Shown piece after piece: positions 39,657-48,805 of a DNA stretch of 64,000 bases; positions within the stretch are counted from its first letter, which is position 1, and every line of letters begins with the position of its first letter. Made by a program: the position numbers and the translations under genes. A model generated the notes under the pieces. It saw only the letters and a list, made by a program, of their open reading frames with translations, was not told the DNA's origin and did not search any database. Source of the stretch: Micrococcus cohnii (GTDB lineage Bacteria > Actinomycetota > Actinomycetes > Actinomycetales > Micrococcaceae); the NCBI RefSeq assembly GCF_014205175.1, contig NZ_JACHNA010000001.1:1550001-1614000 (forward strand), in the 5' to 3' direction.

Positions 39657-39938
39657 TCACTCGGAGGCGGCGGCCTTGAGCTTGGAGCCGGCGGTCACCT
39701 TGACCGAGTAGCCGGCCGGGATGGTGATCTCCTCGCCGGTGCGCGGGTTGCGGCCGGTGCGCTCCTTGCGCTCGGTGCGCTCGACGGCGAGCCAGCCCGG
39801 CACCGAAACCTTCTCGCCCTTCTTCACCTGGGCCGAGAACACCTCGAAGACGGCGTCCAGCACATCGCTGACGGCGGCCTGGGTGTTGCCGGAGCGCTCC
39901 GCGACGGCAGCGACGAGTTCCTTGCGGTTCATAGCCAT
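39657..39938 (-). CDS. hup: HU family nucleoid DNA-binding protein
   Basis: This 93-residue HU-type protein bends and compacts DNA as a dimer. MAMNRKELVAAVAERSG begins at 39938 behind AGGAGG; the DNA-binding arm contains GRNPRTGEEITIPAGYSVKV with the conserved Arg-Asn-Pro tip. The C terminus is short, so it lacks the Lys/Ala-rich tail of mycobacterial-type HupB. It lies downstream of the rpsN operon terminator and has its own unit. Confidence 0.95.
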   Translation of the reverse strand: MAMNRKELVAAVAERSGNTQAAVSDVLDAVFEVFSAQVKKGEKVSVPGWLAVERTERKERTGRNPRTGEEITIPAGYSVKVTAGSKLKAAASE

Positions 39939-40119
39939 GAGGTCCTCCTGTTTGGGACGTCCGTAGGTGTCCCGGACCGTGTCGTCCGGGCCGTACACGC
40001 CTGAACGTACCATCCGGTGCCGCGTGGGCGCGCCCCCGAACGGCCTGTCCGCGCGGATTCTCATCGAACCCCTGGACTTCACCGACGGCGCTGCAGACCG
40101 CCGTGGCCGCACGGACGAC

Positions 40120-40184: not shown

Positions 40185-40490
40185 TCACCAGGAGGACTTG
40201 GTCACGCCGGGCAGCTCGCCACGGTGCGCCATGTCGCGGAAGCGCACGCGGGAGATCCCGAAGCGCTGGAAGGTGCCGCGCGGGCGACCGTCGATCGAGT
40301 CGCGGTTGCGCACACGCACCGGCGACGCGTCGCGGGGCAGCTTCTGCAGGCCCACGCGGGCGGCCTCGCGGGCCTCGTCCGAGGCGTTCGGGTCCACGAG
40401 CGTCTTCTTGAGCTCGAGGCGCTTCTCAGCGTTGCGCGCGACGACGGCCTTGCGCTGCTCGTTCTTGGCGATCTTCGACTTCTTTGCCAT
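40185..40490 (-). CDS. rpsN: 30S ribosomal protein S14, zinc-free form
   Basis: At 101 residues this is the long S14 class, starting [14 protein letters not shown] and ending [12 protein letters not shown], and it lacks the CxxC...CxxC zinc ribbon of short S14. The conserved RNA-binding segment [18 protein letters not shown] is present. It is the third gene of rpmB-rpmG-rpsN and starts 3 bases after rpmG behind GAGAGGAG. Confidence 0.96.
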
Positions 40491-41356: not shown

Positions 41357-41369
41357 GTTGTTGAACAAC
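41357..41369. promoter_or_regulatory. GntR-type operator upstream of NRAMP-like carrier
   Basis: GTTGTT-G-AACAAC is a perfect palindrome matching the FadR-subfamily GntR consensus TnGTnnnACnA. It lies between TTGCGC (-35, 41349-41354) and TATACC (-10, 41371-41376), where a bound repressor would block transcription. The same core recurs in front of pxpA, and a GntR gene lies between. Confidence 0.7.
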
Positions 41370-41443: not shown

Positions 41444-42742
41444 ATGGCGACCTCCGCAGACCTCTCCTCCCACGAGAAGCGCTCGGCACAGAGCCCCGAG
41501 CCGGGCTCCGCGCCGGCCGACGCGCCCACCGCGCCCGGGCGCGCTCCCCTGGACGGCAAGGGCCGACGCACCGCCCTGCTGGGCGCCATGTTCCTCATGG
41601 CGACCTCGGCCATCGGGCCCGGCTTCATCACCCAGACCTCGACGTTCACCGTCCAGATCGGCGCCGCGTTCGCGTTCGCGATCCTCGTGTCGATCCTCAT
41701 CGACATCGCCGTGCAGATGAACGTGTGGCGCGTCGTCGGCGTCTCCGGCATGCGCGCCCAGGAACTCGCTAATGCCGTGCTCCCGGGCCTGGGCTGGGTG
41801 CTCTCGGTGCTCGTGTTCATCGGCGGCATGGTGTTCAACATCGGCAACATCGCCGGCACCGGCCTCGGCACCGACGCGATGTTCGGCCTGGATCCGCTGC
41901 TCGGCGGGGCCGCGTCCGCCGCGATCGCCATCGCCGTGTTCCTGTCCAAGCGCGCCGGCATGGCTCTGGATCGGATCGTGCTGGTCCTCGGCATCGTGAT
42001 GATCCTGCTGATGGGCTTCGTCGCCGTCGTCTCCAACCCGCCCGTGGGCGAGGCGGCCCGCCAGACCGTGCTTCCCGACAGCGTCGACATGCTCATCATC
42101 GTCACGCTCGTCGGCGGCACCGTGGGCGGCTACATCACCTACGCGGGCGCCCACCGCATGATCGACTCGGGCGTCTCCGGTGTCGACGACGTCGCCTCGA
42201 TCACCCGCTCGTCCGTGCTGTCGATCATCGTCACCGGCGTGATGCGCGTGCTGCTGTTCCTTGCGATCCTCGGCGTCGTCGCCGCGGGCGCGACACTGAA
42301 CCCGGACAACCTCGCGGCCTCGGCCTTCGAGCACGCCGCGGGCGAGGTCGGACTGCGCATGTTCGGCGTCGTCCTCTGGGCGGCGGCCATCAGCTCGGTC
42401 ATCGGAGCGGCCTACACCTCGGTCTCGTTCATCACGAAGTCCACGACATCGGCGCGCACTCGCAACCTGCTGACCGTCGCGTTCATCGCGGTGTGCGCCG
42501 TCCTGTACCTGCTGCTGCAGCAGGCGCCGCAGACCCTGCTGGTGTTCGCCGGCGCGTTCAACGGCATGATCCTGCCGATCGGCTTCGCCGCGCTCATGTA
42601 CGTCGCCTGGCGCCGCCGCGATCTGCTGGGCGGTTACCGCTACCCGGTGTGGTTGCTGGTGATCGGCGCGCTGGCCTGGCTGGTCTCGCTCGTGATCGCC
42701 GTGCGCGGCTTCCAGCCGATGCTGGAGCTGTTCGCTGCCTGA
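41444..42742 (+). CDS. NRAMP-like transporter (YcsG type)
   Basis: This 432-residue protein has about 11 hydrophobic helices and the NRAMP-family patterns SAIGPGFITQTSTFTVQIGA and VGGTVGGYITYAGAHRM. The latter differs from the metal-coordinating motif of true Mn/Fe NRAMP proteins. YcsG of Bacillus, encoded beside the 5-oxoprolinase genes, is the closest contextual parallel, so uptake of 5-oxoproline or a related solute is inferred. A GntR-type palindrome sits in its promoter. It is convergent with the gntR gene. Confidence 0.8.
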   Translation: MATSADLSSHEKRSAQSPEPGSAPADAPTAPGRAPLDGKGRRTALLGAMFLMATSAIGPGFITQTSTFTVQIGAAFAFAILVSILIDIAVQMNVWRVVGVSGMRAQELANAVLPGLGWVLSVLVFIGGMVFNIGNIAGTGLGTDAMFGLDPLLGGAASAAIAIAVFLSKRAGMALDRIVLVLGIVMILLMGFVAVVSNPPVGEAARQTVLPDSVDMLIIVTLVGGTVGGYITYAGAHRMIDSGVSGVDDVASITRSSVLSIIVTGVMRVLLFLAILGVVAAGATLNPDNLAASAFEHAAGEVGLRMFGVVLWAAAISSVIGAAYTSVSFITKSTTSARTRNLLTVAFIAVCAVLYLLLQQAPQTLLVFAGAFNGMILPIGFAALMYVAWRRRDLLGGYRYPVWLLVIGALAWLVSLVIAVRGFQPMLELFAA

Positions 42743-42775
42743 CCGAACCCACCGCGCTGGCGGCGGGCTCAGCGC

Positions 42776-43480
42776 TCAGCGTTCCCGGATGTGGTCCAGC
42801 ACGAGCGCTTCGGCCTCGTCGAGATAGGGCTCGAGCACCTCGATCGCGCCCTGACGGTCGCCGGTGAGGATCAACCGGGCCAGCAGGCGGTTGCGCTCGG
42901 CGAAGCGCAGGTGCAGGTCCGTCATCACGTCCATCGGCTGGAACGACAGGCGCAGCCGGCCGAGCACGGAGGCCATCAGCCGATCGAGGTCGGCCGAGGC
43001 CAGCAGCCCGACGATCGTGGTGTGCAGACGCTGGTTCGCATCACCGAGCCGGCGCGGATCGTCGGCGACTTCCACGCCGGCTCCGACGCTGGCGACGACG
43101 TACTCCAGCTGCTGACGCTGAGCCGAGGTCAGCCGCCCGTACTGCAGGGCGCCAAGCTCGATCACGCGTCGGGCGCGGAAGATCTCCTCCACGTCGCGCG
43201 CGCCGGGCTGCACAACGAATACGCCGCGGTGCGGATAGCGCACCAGCAGGTTCTCGGCGACCAGCTGCGCGAAGGCCTCCCGCAGACTGTTGCGGCTGAC
43301 CCCCAGCTCCTCGGCGAGCGCGACCTCGCCGAGCCGGGCGCCGGGGGCCAGCCGGGCCAGGCCGATCCGCTCGCGCAGGGCCGCGGCGACCGCGTCCACC
43401 GCGGACGCGCCCGCCCCCTCCTCGGGCAGGCCGGTCGGCGGGGCCGGCAGAAGCGGGCTGTCGGCGGGGTCCACAGGCAC
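42776..43480 (-). CDS. GntR family regulator, FadR/FCD subfamily
   Basis: This 234-residue protein has an N-terminal winged helix (GEVALAEELGVSRNSLREAF) and an all-helical FCD ligand domain with metal-binding-type His/Asp positions (LGDANQRLHTTIV, LRFAERNRLLARLI). The GTG start follows GAAGGAG. It is the last gene of the pxpA-pxpBC-carboxylase operon, and it is flanked by two TTGTTnAACAA palindromes of the FadR type, so it probably represses both that operon and the NRAMP-like carrier gene. Confidence 0.9.
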   Translation of the reverse strand: MPVDPADSPLLPAPPTGLPEEGAGASAVDAVAAALRERIGLARLAPGARLGEVALAEELGVSRNSLREAFAQLVAENLLVRYPHRGVFVVQPGARDVEEIFRARRVIELGALQYGRLTSAQRQQLEYVVASVGAGVEVADDPRRLGDANQRLHTTIVGLLASADLDRLMASVLGRLRLSFQPMDVMTDLHLRFAERNRLLARLILTGDRQGAIEVLEPYLDEAEALVLDHIRER

Positions 43481-43563
43481 GCGAGTCTCCTTCGGTGTGG
43501 TCGGATCAGGGGCGGGCGCCCGGGTCGGCGCACCCGCCCACAGGCCCGGAGGCCGGACGGCGG

Positions 43564-45327
43564 TCAGGACTCGACGCGCGCGATCACCTGGCCGCGACTC
43601 AGCGCGACGCCCGGCTCCAGAGATTCGAGCTGCACCCTACCGGTCGCCGGGGCGGTCACCGGCGTCTCCATCTTCATGGCCTCGACCACCGCGACGGTCT
43701 GCCCCGCCGACACCTGGTCGCCGTCGGCCACGGAGAAGGAGACGAGCGAGCCGTTGATCGGGGAGGTCACCGCGCCGGCGGCCTCCTCGGAGCCGCCCGC
43801 CCCCTGCGCGTCCGCGTCGACGGCCGCGCCGGCCGCTCCCCCGCCGCCGAGCAGCGCGGCGTGCAGGCGCGCCGGGATGCCCAGCTGCACGGCCTTCCCG
43901 TCGAGCTCGACGGTCAGGGTGGTGCGGCGGCCGTCGGGCTGGGCGGCGGCCAGGTGCGGGGAGGCCTCCAGCTCCGTGGCGAAGGCCGACTCGATCCACG
44001 TGGTGTACACGCCGAGCTCGTCGGCGGCGGTGAAGTCCGGGTGCTCGATCACGGTGCGGTGGAACGGCACGACGGTCGCCACGCCCTCGATGCGCAGCTC
44101 GGCGAGCGCGTCCTTGGCGCGGGCCAGCGCCTGGGCCCGGTCCTCGCCCCAGACGATCAGCTTGGCCATCAGCGAGTCGTACTCACCGGGGATCACCGAG
44201 CCTGAGCGCACGCCGGCGTCCATGCGCACGCCGGGACCGGTCGGCGCCTCGAACGCCTCGACCAGCCCGGGCGAGGGCAGAAAGCCCATGGCCGGGTCCT
44301 CGGCGTTCAGGCGGAACTCGAAGGCGTGACCGCGCGGGGTCGGGTCTTCGGTGATCGACAGCGGCTCGCCGGCCGCGGCGCGGAACTGCTCGCGTACCAG
44401 ATCCACGCCCGTCGTCGCCTCGGAGACGGGGTGCTCGACCTGCAGGCGCGTGTTCACCTCGAGGAAGCTGATGAGCCCGTCGGGGGCGACGAGGTACTCG
44501 ACCGTGCCGGCGCCGGTGTACGCGGCCTCGGCGCAGATGCGGCGGGCGGAGTCGTGGATGCGCTCGCGCTGCTCATCGGTGAGGAACGGCGCGGGCGCCT
44601 CCTCGACGAGCTTCTGGTTGCGGCGCTGCAGCGAGCAGTCGCGGGTGCCGACCACCACGACGTTGCCGTGCGAGTCCGCGACGACCTGCGCCTCCACGTG
44701 GCGCGGGCGGTCCAGGAAGCGCTCGACGAAGCACTCGCCGCGGCCGAAGGCCGTCACGGCCTCGCGCACGGCCGAGGCGAAGGCGTCCTCGACATCGTCC
44801 AGCTCACGGACGACCTTGATGCCGCGGCCGCCGCCGCCGAAGGCGGCCTTGATGGCGATCGGCAGGCCGTGCTCCTCGGCGAACGCGCGGGCCTCGGCCG
44901 GCGAGTCCACGGGGCCGTCCGAGCCGGGCACGAGCGGGGCGCCGGCGGCCTGAGCGATCGCACGGGCCGTGATCTTGTCGCCCAGGTCGCGGATGACCTT
45001 CGGGCTCGGGCCGACCCAGGTCAGCCCCGCCTCGACGACCTTCTCGGCGAAGTCCGCGTTCTCGGAGAGGAAGCCGTAGCCGGGGTGCACACCGTCGGCG
45101 CCGCTGCGGCGGGCGATCTCGATGAGGGCGTCCTGGTCCAGGTAGGTCTCGGCCGATGAGGCGCCCGGCAGGTGGTAGGCCTCGTCGGCGAGCGCCACGT
45201 GCATCGCGTCCGCGTCGGGGTCGGAGTACACGGCGACGGAGGTCAGGCCGTGGTCGCGGCACGCGCGGGCCACGCGCACGGCGATCTCGCCTCGGTTCGC
45301 GATGAGGATCTTGGTCAGCTGCGGCAT
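43564..45327 (-). CDS. Biotin carboxylase fused to biotin carrier domain
   Basis: This 587-residue protein contains a complete biotin carboxylase (residues 1-~450): the ATP-grasp glycine loop [28 protein letters not shown] and catalytic Arg/Glu. A linker of ~50 residues leads to a biotinyl domain with EAMKMET; K552 is the biotinylation site. It resembles the alpha subunits of acyl-CoA carboxylases, but no carboxyltransferase beta subunit is nearby. Instead it starts 3 bases after the fused PxpB-PxpC gene, whose fold is related to the carboxyltransferase of urea carboxylase. A role in 5-oxoproline metabolism is inferred. Confidence 0.93.
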
Positions 45328-45330
45328 GGG

Positions 45331-47130
45331 TCAGGCCTCCTCGGTCTGAGCGGGGGACGTCGTCGGCGCGGGCTGTGCCGACGAGGACGTCTGCGGGGTC
45401 GGTGATGCCTCGGATGCCGCGGGCCGGTTGGCCGTGGCCGTCTGGGCGAGGTCGGCGGGGTCGGCGGGGTCGGCGGGGCCGCTGTGGTCGTCGTCGGCGT
45501 CCACCGTCGTGAAGCGCACGCGCGCCCCGGGCGGCAGCTGGGCGGCGGTGCCCAGGTCCTCGGGTACGACCACCGCGACGACGGGATAGCCGCCGGTCAC
45601 CGGGTGGTCGGCGAGGAACAGCACCGGCTCGCCCGACGGCGGGACCTGCAGAGCGCCGGTGAACACGCCTTCGGAGGCGAGCTCACCGTCCTTCGCACGG
45701 GTGAGCGGGGCCCCGTCGTCCGGAGCGCGCAGGCGGACGCCGATCCGGTTCGACTCAGCCGTGACGGTCCACTGCTGCGCGGTGAAGCGCTCGAGCGAGT
45801 CCGCGTCGAACCAGTCCTGCCTCGGGCCCAGCACGACGCGCAGGGTCGTGAGCCCGTGGGCGGTCGGGGTGCGGCGCACGGGCGGCTCGGCGTCCCCGAC
45901 GAGGCGGTGGCCGGGGTCCACGCGGCGGGGCACGAACATGCCCGGGGCCAGCGGGTCCGGGCCGATGCCGGACATGACGTCGGTGGCGCGCGAGCCCAGC
46001 GGTGCCTCGACCTCAATGCCGCCGCGCACGGCGAGGTAGGCGCGCATGCCGGCGGCGGGCTCCTCCAGAGTGAGGGTCTCGTCGTCGAGCAGCGCGAAGG
46101 GGCGCCGCACCGGGGCGGTGCGCACGTGCGCCGGGGAGGTGATGGTGGCGCGGGCCTCGGCGCCGGCCAGGGCCAGCACGTGGTCGCCGTGCGCCGTCAC
46201 GCTCAGCCCGCCCAGCAGCGCCTCGATGACCGCCTCGGACGAGGAGTTGCCCACCAGACGGTTGGCCTGGCGCGCCGCGGTGCGGTCGGCGGCACCGGAG
46301 GCCGTGACGCCGAGATCGCCGTGGCCGTGCCGCCCAAGGTCTTGGATCAGGGCCTGCAGACCGGTCGCCTCGACGTGCAGCCCGGGGGCGTCCGCGTCGG
46401 CGAGTGACCCGGCGGCGTCCACCTGGTCGGCGTCCTCCGTGTGGTCGGCGTCCGCACGGCTGGGGGTGGGCGTCGTGACCACGGCCAGCTCCCGCACGGC
46501 TCGGTAGCGCACGCGGTCGCCGGGGCGGATGAGCGCCGGAGCCTCACGATCGATGTCCCACAGGACGGCATCGGTGCGGCCGAGCAGCTGCCAACCGCCG
46601 GGCGAGACACGCGGGTAGACGGCGGAGAACCGACCGGCCAGGCCGACGGACCCCGCGGGCACCGCGGTGCGCGGCGAACTGCGCCGCGGCACGTCGAAGG
46701 GAGCCGGCTCAGCGGCGCAGTAGGTGAAGCCCGGGGCGAAGCCGCCGAAGGCGCCGACGTATTCGGTCGAGGTGTGGGCGTCGATCACGGCGTCAATGCT
46801 CATGCCCGTCAGCGCGGCCACATCGGCGAGGTCTTCACCGTCGTAGAGAACATCGACCGTGACCACGCGAGCAGCCTCATCGTCACGCGCCTCAGGGGTG
46901 ACGGTCGTGACCTGGCGGGCGGCGGCGACGGCCTCGCCGCGGGTGCGGAAGACCAGCAGCACGGTCTCGGCGGCGGCGATCGCCTCGCGCTGCCCGGGAT
47001 AGGGATGGGCGATCAGGTGCGCGTGCAGCGTCATGACGTCGGCCAGGCTCGCGCACTCGAGCAGGAACGCCTGCGGACCGGCCCAACGCAGGGTGGGGAC
47101 GGTGAAGCCGCCCGAGGAGGTGACGCTCAT
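45331..47130 (-). CDS. pxpBC: Fused 5-oxoprolinase subunits PxpB-PxpC (KipI-KipA)
   Basis: This 599-residue fusion has a KipI/PxpB domain (~12-225; [20 protein letters not shown]) and a KipA/PxpC domain (~250-540; [19 protein letters not shown] and [11 protein letters not shown]). A low-complexity acidic linker joins them and a disordered Pro/Ala/Ser tail follows. In E. coli, PxpA, PxpB and PxpC together open 5-oxoproline to glutamate with ATP. The domain pair is also homologous to the carboxyltransferase part of urea carboxylase. The start ATG overlaps the pxpA stop (ATGA), so the two are coupled. Confidence 0.93.
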
Positions 47131-47891
47131 GCGAAGGCCTCGATCCGCACGCCGGCCTCATCGAGCCCGGCGCGCACGGCGGCGGCCATCGCGACGGCAC
47201 CGGGGGTGTCGCCATGCAGGCAGATCGACTCGGCCTCGACGCGGATGTCCGAGCCGTCGACGGCGCTCAGGACCCCCTCGGTGGCCAGGCGCACCATGCG
47301 CGCGGTCACCTCCGCTTCGTCATGCAGGACGGCGCCGGGCTCCCGGCGGGAGACGAGCGTGCCTTCGGGGGTGTACCCGCGGTCGGCGAAGGCCTCGGCG
47401 ACGCCGCGCAGCCCGGCCGCACGCGCCTTCTCGAGCGCGACCGACCCCGGCAGCAGCAGCAGCGGCAGGTCCCCGCCGAACTCCTTCACCGCGTCCACGA
47501 CAGCCTGGGCGTGCGCCTCGTGGTGGACGATCGTGTTGTAGAGGGCGCCGTGCGGCTTGACGTAGCGAATGCGGCCACCGGCGGCGCGGGCCAGGGCCTC
47601 GAGGGCGCCCATCTGGTAGAGCACGTCGTCGGCCAGCTCGGTCGGTGAGCAGTCGAGGAAGCGGCGGCCGAAGCCGGCCAGGTCCCGGTACCCGACGTGT
47701 GCGCCGATGCTGATGCCTGCGGCGACGGCCGCACGACAGGTCGCCCCGATGCCGGACGGATCGCCGGCGTGGAAGCCGCAGGCGACGTTCGCGGAGGACA
47801 CGGAGCGGAACATGGCGGCGTCGTCGCCCATGGACCAGCTGCCGAAGGACTCGCCGACGTCGCTGTTCAGGTCGATGCTCATGGCCGTCAT
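47127..47891 (-). CDS. pxpA: 5-oxoprolinase subunit PxpA (LamB/YcsF family)
   Basis: This 254-residue protein has the LamB/YcsF hallmarks [49 protein letters not shown] and [13 protein letters not shown], which contribute the conserved Asp and His active-site residues. GAGAGGAG precedes the ATG. It leads the operon pxpA-pxpBC-carboxylase-gntR. A GntR-type palindrome sits in its promoter overlapping a TTGAAC -35 that is 17 bases from CATTAT. Confidence 0.95.
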
Positions 47892-47951
47892 GGTGCGGCT
47901 CCTCTCAGGCGGATGCGGGACAGATCACTCCATAATGAGGCCTGCACCAGA

Positions 47952-47964
47952 ATTGTTCAACAAT
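47952..47964. promoter_or_regulatory. GntR-type operator upstream of pxpA
   Basis: ATTGTT-C-AACAAT is a perfect 13-base palindrome sharing the core TTGTTnAACAA with the site at 41357-41369. On the pxpA strand it overlaps TTGAAC, which is spaced 17 bases from a -10-like CATTAT. It is the likely operator for the operon's own GntR gene. Confidence 0.72.
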
Positions 47965-47998
47965 CCCGGCTGACGTGGGACGACGTGGCGCGACGGGC

Positions 47999-48805
47999 TC
48001 AGAGCTCCCGCGCGTTCTCCACCACCGGCACGGCGGCGCGAAACCGCCGCACGGCCTCGAGGTCCAGCTCGACGACGCGCGTCTGCGGGCCGTGATCCAG
48101 ACGCACCGCGTCGACGCCGTCGGGGCCGATCAGGCCCGAGCGCCCCACCCCCAGCGGGGCGGTGTCGGAGGCCACCTCGGGGTCCTGACCGAGGTCGGCG
48201 CGCACGGCCTGATCGCACGCGGCGACCAGCGCACCGCTGTCCAGCGCCCGGGCGCGGGTGAGCGTCTCCCACTGGGCCGCCTTGCCAGGCCCCGCGCCCC
48301 ACGAGGCCGCGACGAGCATGACCTGCGCCCCCTCGCGGGCGAGCCGGGTGAACAGCGCCGGGAAGCGTACGTCGTAGCAGGTGGCCAGTCCGAAGCGAAC
48401 TCCCCCGTGCTCGACGACGCACGGCGCGTCCCCGGGGGCGATCGTGTCCGACTCACGATGGCCGAAGGCGTCGTAGAGGTGGATCTTGTCGTAACCCAGC
48501 GGCTCCTCACCCGGGCGCAGCATCAGCAGGGTGTTGTGGATACGGCCGTCGGCAGCGGGCGTGAACGTGCCGACGACCAGGGTGAGGTCGAGCTCGTCGG
48601 CCAGCGCCGCAAGGCGGGCGTGCGCGGCCTCGGCGCGGTCGGCCGCGAACGCGTCGAGGTCGCCGTCGAACGCGCACGTCGCAGCCTCGGGGAACAGCAC
48701 GAGCCGGGCACCCTCCCCGGCCGCGTCCCGCGCCGCCGCGTCCACGGCACGAAGGTTCGCTTCGACGTCGGGGGTCGAGCTGATCTGGGCGAGGGCGATC
48801 TTCAC
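47999..48805 (-). CDS. Nitrilase-superfamily amidase
   Basis: This 268-residue protein, from GTG at 48805 behind GAGGAGG, has the Glu-Lys-Cys triad of carbon-nitrogen hydrolases: E40 (LFPEA), K107 (YDKIHLYD) and C143 (LATCYDVRFP). The sequence resembles NIT/omega-amidase-like members that deaminate alpha-keto acid amides or small amides. It lies upstream of pxpA on the same strand, with the operator between them, so it may belong to the same nitrogen pathway but have its own promoter. The substrate is not assigned. Confidence 0.88.
   Translation of the reverse strand: MKIALAQISSTPDVEANLRAVDAAARDAAGEGARLVLFPEAATCAFDGDLDAFAADRAEAAHARLAALADELDLTLVVGTFTPAADGRIHNTLLMLRPGEEPLGYDKIHLYDAFGHRESDTIAPGDAPCVVEHGGVRFGLATCYDVRFPALFTRLAREGAQVMLVAASWGAGPGKAAQWETLTRARALDSGALVAACDQAVRADLGQDPEVASDTAPLGVGRSGLIGPDGVDAVRLDHGPQTRVVELDLEAVRRFRAAVPVVENAREL

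Follow-up and report, generated by a model that had tools for sequence, protein, structure and literature searches.

A dedicated biotin carboxylase in a predicted 5-oxoproline regulon of Micrococcus cohnii: a possible biotin-dependent form of bacterial 5-oxoprolinase

Damage to glutamine and glutamate unavoidably gives rise to 5-oxoproline. Its disposal in bacteria is ascribed to PxpABC, a widespread system, the mechanism by which PxpBC activates the lactam being only assumed so far (PMC13274462). For Corynebacterium glutamicum it was reported that PxpR represses pxpTABC and binds 5-oxo-L-proline with a dissociation constant (KD) of 726 nM, and the role of NRAMP-type carriers (PxpT of this organism, and YcsG) in the 5-oxoproline system was described (PMC13274462). 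Here, a locus of Micrococcus cohnii is considered, in which genes of the PxpABC type are joined by a gene for a biotin carboxylase (BC) with its own biotinyl domain, for which the name PxpD is used in this text. The locus is part of a window of 64,000 nucleotides (positions 1,550,001 to 1,614,000 of contig NZ_JACHNA010000001.1) from a single-contig genome of 2,275,595 bases. The view that PxpBC is the carboxyltransferase partner of PxpD is supported by a complex of homologues in the PDB, by a natural reading frame which joins PxpC, BC and biotinyl domain, by the recruitment of varied carboxylases to pxp operons and by the occurrence of the operon on plasmids. An oxoprolinase is preferred over an enzyme for another lactam because of the operator shared with the 5-oxoproline system; a biotin-dependent form of bacterial 5-oxoprolinase is the reading which we favour for the locus and the most likely of those considered, although in our estimate its truth is an evenly balanced proposition.

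Genes on both strands were called from open reading frames (ORFs) and assigned to families by profile scans with Pfam and NCBIfam. The features of the locus are, in positions of the window:

47127–47891, minus strand: pxpA (LamB/YcsF family), proposed ring-opening subunit (ORF; Pfam LamB_YcsF; NCBIfam NF003814)
45331–47130, minus strand: pxpB-pxpC fusion (PxpBC), proposed carboxyltransferase (ORF; Pfam CT_C_D and CT_A_B; AlphaFold2 (AF2) model)
43564–45327, minus strand: PxpD, AccA3-like fusion of BC and biotinyl carrier (Biotin_carb_N, CPSase_L_D2, Biotin_carb_C, Biotin_lipoyl; biotinyl lysine K552)
42776–43480, minus strand: GntR/FCD regulator gene, candidate equivalent of PxpR, 83 nt after PxpD (ORF; Pfam)
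41444 (ATG)–42742, plus strand: Nramp-family carrier (YcsG/PxpT type), proposed 5-oxoproline uptake (ORF; Pfam)
47953–47963, no strand assigned: PxpR-type operator TTGTTCAACAA (part of ATTGTTCAACAAT), some 61 nt before the start of pxpA (sequence match)
41358–41368, no strand assigned: PxpR-type operator TTGTTGAACAA, the second one, some 75 nt before the ATG of the carrier gene (sequence match)
47999–about 48805, minus strand: CN_hydrolase, neighbour of pxpA on its upstream side (ORF; Pfam/NCBIfam)

An earlier note, made from the DNA letters, had named pxpA, a fused PxpB-PxpC, a BC/biotinyl fusion and gntR as an operon, with a YcsG-like carrier opposite and an amidase upstream; all of these genes were found again by ORFs and profile scans, the first four on the minus strand. 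The junctions of 3–4 bases claimed there exist between pxpA and pxpBC (4-base overlap) and between pxpBC and PxpD (gap of 3 bases), and not between PxpD and gntR, which are 83 nt apart. The product of pxpA reached 360.3 bits with NF003814 (cut-off 226) and is thus assigned as PxpA subunit. In the fusion, the PxpB half contains CT_C_D, and the PxpC half scored 242.5 with TIGR00724, above the cut-off of 230.2.

The BC of PxpD is complete, as noted earlier, with all three BC domains present. Four BC loci were found in the genome (contig C1), PxpD included. One (C1:192942) shares its cluster with a PF01039 carboxyltransferase gene (C1:200175) and a biotin ligase, the latter judged by eye from the sequence; another (C1:356736) adjoins the second PF01039 gene (C1:354205); the fourth is a frame of 1182 amino acids which resembles pyruvate carboxylase in appearance, an assignment without confirmation by family scan. 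Both PF01039 loci, the only two in the genome, are far from the window (C1:1550001–1614000), and each clusters with its own fusion of BC and biotin carboxyl carrier protein (BCCP); no PF01039 AccD partner was present in the neighbourhood of PxpD, as had been claimed. A missing beta subunit elsewhere in the genome, named earlier as an outcome that would speak against PxpBC, was rejected, since both candidates cluster with their own BCs. From this inventory, PxpD is the only BC of the genome that lacks a PF01039 partner in its cluster and whose frame is also too short to include a transferase of its own, and the only CT_A_B gene of the genome is that of PxpBC.

PxpD has the features of a biotin protein of the AccA3 type, with fused BC and biotinyl domains, conserved BC residues and a biotinyl lysine. 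This lysine, K552 as given in the earlier note, stands in the motif EAMKME, and E-A-M-K was invariant in an alignment of 21 rows, picked because they contain BC as well as biotinyl domains, which included AccA3 of the same genome. Among 36 PxpD rows (L174 and L058 left out; L125, on a short contig, too short for the BC rows; locus handles begin with L), 9 of 11 selected active-site residues of the BC were invariant, and the biotinyl motif E-A/S-M-K was kept in 33, including L146 (EAMKME). The rows without it were L135, L143 and L117, the last being cut off by the end of its contig.

The AF2 model of PxpBC (predicted local distance difference test, pLDDT, 85; predicted template modelling score, pTM, 0.84; alignment of 31 rows) matched TTHA0988, MSMEG_0435/0436, E. 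coli YbgJK and the carboxyltransferase (CT) of urea amidolyase/urea carboxylase from K. lactis. For the PxpC half the Z values against urea carboxylase were 35.0 (5i8i) and 25.3 (3va7), with 28% identity; the modelled half would thus have a carboxyltransferase fold, in line with the kinship between PxpB/PxpC and the carboxyltransferase of urea carboxylase named in the earlier note. Framework residues of PxpC were common to (bacterial) urea carboxylase and to proteins from loci with and without an adjacent BC (BC-containing and BC-free loci, respectively).

PDB entry 9yx5, released 2025-11-26, was matched by sequence searches with PxpBC as well as with PxpD. According to its title and chain names, it contains MSMEG_0435-MSMEG_0436 bound to the long chain acyl-CoA carboxylase complex of M. 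smegmatis. MSMEG_0436 is 45% identical to the PxpB part and MSMEG_0435 41% to the PxpC part, and the best PDB match of PxpD was AccA3 (748 bits). A further link is provided by Microlunatus parietis (L174:7653-10493), where PxpC, BC and biotinyl domain are found in one ORF (Pfam CT_A_B, BC domains, Biotin_lipoyl). The region that separates BC from biotinyl domain in the other aligned proteins is missing from this fusion.

Phylogenetic relationships of the carboxylases were estimated by a quick method from 71 BC rows; 13 of 37 PxpD rows were left out, and duplicates from overlapping loci were contained (L004/L006/L097, L002/L096, L174 twice, L013/L203). In this tree the pxp-linked AccA3-like proteins were found with, and outside of, the AccA3 clade that holds the housekeeping copies (98% support in the Shimodaira-Hasegawa-like approximate likelihood ratio test, SH-aLRT). 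PxpD of the window was excluded from that clade as well, and the sole exception among the PxpD rows was the Microlunatus fusion, whose BC branched among AccA3. Carboxylases of the AccC type from pxp loci (families f26 and f18) fell elsewhere; different types of carboxylases, AccA3-like and AccC-like, have been recruited to pxp operons. PxpD of L038, from the same family as the window, grouped with Pseudarthrobacter and not with PxpD of the window, which hints at transfer or old paralogues.

A survey of carboxylases next to pxp genes, as suggested in the earlier note, was carried out with 246 genomes of the same phylum, of which 59 contained CT_A_B; 58 neighbourhoods were fetched and the window was added, with one pxpC neighbourhood per genome (the pxpA-linked one where present) and adjacency counted on the fetched DNA. 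In 17 of the 59 genomes a BC lay no more than 5 kb from pxpC, these being the genome of the window, L038 and 15 with AccC-type BC; L058 was dropped from this count, its BC lying beside a classical carboxyltransferase. A chance neighbourhood was rejected on this count and a binomial tail of 2e-20, which is crude, assuming a chance rate of about 1% for genomes which are related; an origin of the link between pxpC and carboxylase by chance thus appears unlikely. The best 80 of 594 matches to the PxpC alignment comprised 30 loci with fused PxpBC and BC, 11 fused without BC (3 of which, L119, L130 and L159, end at contig edges), 38 unfused without BC and one unfused with BC. On the PxpC tree, whose BC-free rows include L014 and L032, both resembling cut urea carboxylases, the presence of BC requires 13 changes, at least 7 of them on well-supported branches, gains and losses not being told apart. 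Distances of PxpD, PxpC and PxpA from 36 loci were correlated (Mantel r 0.78–0.88; 0/2000 permutations), which is what co-inheritance or shared descent would give. In Nesterenkonia natronophila (L145:4-9482) the locus has two copies of PxpBC, one of them followed by PxpD.

Outside the actinobacteria, the operon of fused PxpBC and fused PxpD was found in Pelomonas, two Xenorhabdus species and an Acinetobacter record, and, with AccA3-like PxpD, on plasmids of Shinella, Klebsiella and Sinorhizobium, where no carboxyltransferase gene was present in the viewed regions. The stretch from pxpA to PxpD of one Klebsiella plasmid matched 103 plasmid records at ≥95% identity, with coverage of ≥80% of the stretch in 102 of them. 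On that plasmid (L179:2142-9302) the order is GntR-NRAMP-PxpA-D-glutamate cyclase-PxpBC-PxpD, flanked at either end by an IS1 transposase gene. Twelve plasmid records were viewed, picked by hand from 736 with a PxpBC match; 9 of these have a BC, either by annotation or by a script search. On plasmids of Burkholderia, Rhizobium and Moraxella, AccC and AccB are encoded by separate genes next to pxpBCA, and such genes are near pxpBCA in Mesorhizobium; the operons of Burkholderia and Moraxella have two biotinyl proteins each. No BC was seen in the viewed region of the Deinococcus or Methylobacterium plasmid records. Agrobacterium vitis (L183:5014-8426) has pxpB/pxpC/pxpA and two separate biotinyl proteins, with no BC gene in the viewed region.

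Predicted regulation connects the locus with 5-oxoproline. The mapped PxpR site of C. glutamicum is agattgttcaacaatct (PMC13274462); its core, TTGTTNAACAA, occurs at only two places in the 2.28 Mb genome of Micrococcus cohnii, before pxpA and before the carrier gene, and these are the two PxpR-type operators predicted by sequence match. The reversed pattern, used as control, was found at one place in the genome, and none of 100 shuffles of the window contained TTGTTNAACAA. Among related loci, the core was present at most 400 nt before a match to BC, gntR, the carrier or a pxp gene in 29 of 52 BC-containing and 17 of 93 BC-free loci (L014 and L032 are counted among the latter), the numbers of sites expected from base composition being 0.19 and 0.07, respectively. 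Judged by these motifs, BC-containing operons appear to belong to the same type of regulon as BC-free ones, and the GntR protein of the window would be the one which binds the two predicted operators.

In urea carboxylase, carboxybiotin carboxylates a nitrogen of urea. This chemistry, together with the shared fold, suggests that the lactam is first N-carboxylated and then hydrolysed by PxpA, after which the CO2 is lost again. PxpD, a dedicated BC of AccA3 type with its own biotinyl domain, would form carboxybiotin from ATP and bicarbonate; the biotinyl arm would dock on the fused PxpBC, which shares its predicted fold and its conserved framework with the carboxyltransferase of urea carboxylase, and PxpBC would pass CO2 to the ring nitrogen of 5-oxoproline. 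The activated lactam could then be hydrolysed by PxpA, and the N-carboxyglutamate would lose CO2 to yield glutamate. A GntR repressor of the PxpR type would sense 5-oxoproline, and the NRAMP carrier would import it. Activation of a lactam with bicarbonate has a precedent as an idea, since for caprolactamase, a different ATP-dependent lactamase, a carboxyester of the lactim was discussed as one of three options (PMC8453981).

Several observations weigh against a biotin-dependent oxoprolinase. In the phylum sample, the majority of the genomes with pxpC (42 of 59) lack a BC beside it, and the correlation between fusion and BC comes mostly from one clade with few events; corrected for descent it was not significant, the independent pairs being too few. 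The fusion of the window stayed below the equivalog cut-offs for PxpB (TIGR00370, scored against the fusion, 129.8 bits; cut-off 145.55) and PxpC (NF045499, 182.2; cut-off 500). No chain of 9yx5 was matched by the PxpA query. At the thresholds used, no position of PxpC or PxpB separated proteins of BC-containing loci from those of BC-free loci (L014 and L032 being among the latter), and fixed residues as a mark of BC partnership were abandoned. In Frigoribacterium, the PxpD-like proteins L135:8966-10492 and L143:8963-10504, beside fused PxpBC, carry glycine instead of N292 and alanine instead of R294 and lack the biotinyl domain, no biotinyl motif being present in either locus; from their sequences they are possibly pseudoenzymes. 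Five out of five searched genomes with fused PxpBC and no adjacent BC keep pxpA/pxpBC and contain a single BC of the AccA3/PxpD class (63–65% identity to PxpD of the window), and three out of three BC-containing control genomes carry two, the class being assigned by identity and not from a tree; the genomes are of unstated completeness, two of the five are from metagenome-assembled genome (MAG) records, and L102 and L120 are outside the set. Judged by these five genomes, PxpD can be dispensed with in the course of evolution; its place may be taken in trans by AccA3, or a BC may not be needed. In the work of Niehaus from 2017, recombinant PxpABC of B. subtilis is reported to work with no carboxylase added. 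The pxpTABC cluster of C. glutamicum supports growth on 5-oxoproline, and its authors name no BC in it (PMC13274462); co-purified PxpB/PxpC was reported to hydrolyse ATP (PMC8453981), and phosphorylation by PxpB/PxpC is assumed in current models (PMC13274462).

These points lead to the alternative that PxpABC opens 5-oxoproline by direct phosphorylation with ATP and that PxpD is a bound accessory, as scaffold, regulator or optional booster, instead of a CO2 donor. The reported ATPase and the published assumption would fit, as would the retention of PxpD without biotinyl domain in two Frigoribacterium loci, the lack of a second carboxylase of this class in the five relatives and the lack of fixed differences in PxpBC; yet the biotinyl motif in 33 of 36 PxpD rows, nearly invariant checked BC residues and the match of the CT fold to urea carboxylase speak against an accessory, and we consider direct phosphorylation unlikely here. 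A wider version of biotin dependence would hold PxpABC to be a biotin enzyme at least across Actinomycetota, working by N-carboxylation and not by phosphorylation, where PxpBC borrows AccA3 in trans if PxpD is missing, as 9yx5 may show, and lineages like Micrococcus cohnii have a dedicated copy; this, too, appears doubtful at present, being well short of an even prospect.

It is quite improbable that PxpD-PxpBC carboxylates another small amide or lactam (5-oxo-D-proline, for instance, or a compound resembling urea or a hydantoin), which PxpA would then hydrolyse, and that 5-oxoproline is only a signal or side substrate. A "putative hydro-lyase" stands between pxpA and pxpBC in the operons of Shinella and Klebsiella, that of Klebsiella being a D-glutamate cyclase by Pfam (PF07286), which points to the D-form there, and in one BC-containing locus examined, that of Pseudarthrobacter sulfonivorans (L110:5891-7243), a carrier of the major facilitator superfamily (MFS) is found between pxpA and pxpBC, with no NRAMP match in the locus; operator and carrier types in the window, however, match the 5-oxoproline system of C. 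glutamicum. Still less probable is a spare AccA3 alpha subunit, which would serve the AccD beta subunits of the genome from an incidental position in the operon. PxpD is 57% identical to the genome's own AccA3 and two PF01039 loci are available, but each of these has its own BC-BCCP, the PxpD rows lie outside the AccA3 clade save for the Microlunatus fusion, and proteobacterial plasmids carry the operon as well, the regions viewed there being free of CT genes. The weakest proposal, that MSMEG_0435-0436 and relatives bind AccA3 as a moonlighting brake on lipid synthesis, with PxpD as decoy or dedicated partner, takes up their presence on the acyl-CoA carboxylase complex in 9yx5 and is very hard to believe, as the breakdown of 5-oxoproline is what the pxp operator and the transport context indicate.

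From the earlier interpretation, the partnership of PxpBC with PxpD is thus supported and is not unique to the locus of the window; a biotin-dependent oxoprolinase is unproven. A BC in the same predicted 5-oxoproline regulon suggests a concrete alternative chemistry, whereby in some bacteria the ring is opened after attachment of CO2. If true, this would provide a function for a carboxylase which has been annotated so far, in the viewed records, only as subunit of "acetyl-CoA carboxylase" or as "biotin carboxylase N-terminal domain-containing protein", and biotin-dependent opening of 5-oxoproline would offer a reason for PxpBC homologues on a mycobacterial acyl-CoA carboxylase. No functional assignment of PxpD was found in the open-licence full-text literature, as judged from titles, starts of abstracts and passages, in agreement with the earlier note; the association of pxp and carboxylase genes is widespread and visible in annotation.

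As to the neighbouring genes, the closest NCBIfam model of the CN_hydrolase was deaminated glutathione amidase, with a score below the cut-off. This amidase was not adopted as a member of the operon; since the predicted operator is situated between it and pxpA, it is probably outside. On the other side, a gene resembling ribosomal protein S14 (40185–40490) is close to an HU-like gene (39657–40112), both seen by eye in the ORF list.

Compared with described systems, the locus shares with PxpABC (YcsF/KipI/KipA of B. subtilis, YbgLJK of E. coli, pxpTABC of C. glutamicum) the PxpA, PxpB and PxpC families, an NRAMP-type carrier, a GntR gene and the PxpR-type operator, but has PxpB and PxpC fused, without reaching their equivalog cut-offs, and a dedicated BC/biotinyl protein. 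With urea carboxylase of urea amidolyase (3va7, 5i8i) it would have in common the CT fold (in the PxpC half), the PxpC framework residues and the presence of BC and biotinyl domains, although the chains are separate ORFs and not one BC-CT-BCCP polypeptide (TIGR02712: 522.3 for PxpD and 157.9 for PxpBC, cut-off 1303.85), and PxpA takes the place of allophanate hydrolase. Mycobacterial AccA3 (alpha3), as in 9yx5, is the closest PDB match of PxpD, and MSMEG_0436/0435 resemble the PxpB and PxpC parts; AccA3, however, is a shared housekeeping subunit, whereas PxpD is found in pxp operons and, except in L174, outside the AccA3 clade. In the clusters of AccC, AccB and PxpBCA on plasmids of Pseudomonadota and in other families of the phylum, a BC and a biotinyl protein also stand beside PxpB, PxpC and PxpA; there, the subunits are unfused, the carboxylase is of the AccC type, and Burkholderia and Moraxella possess two biotinyl proteins.

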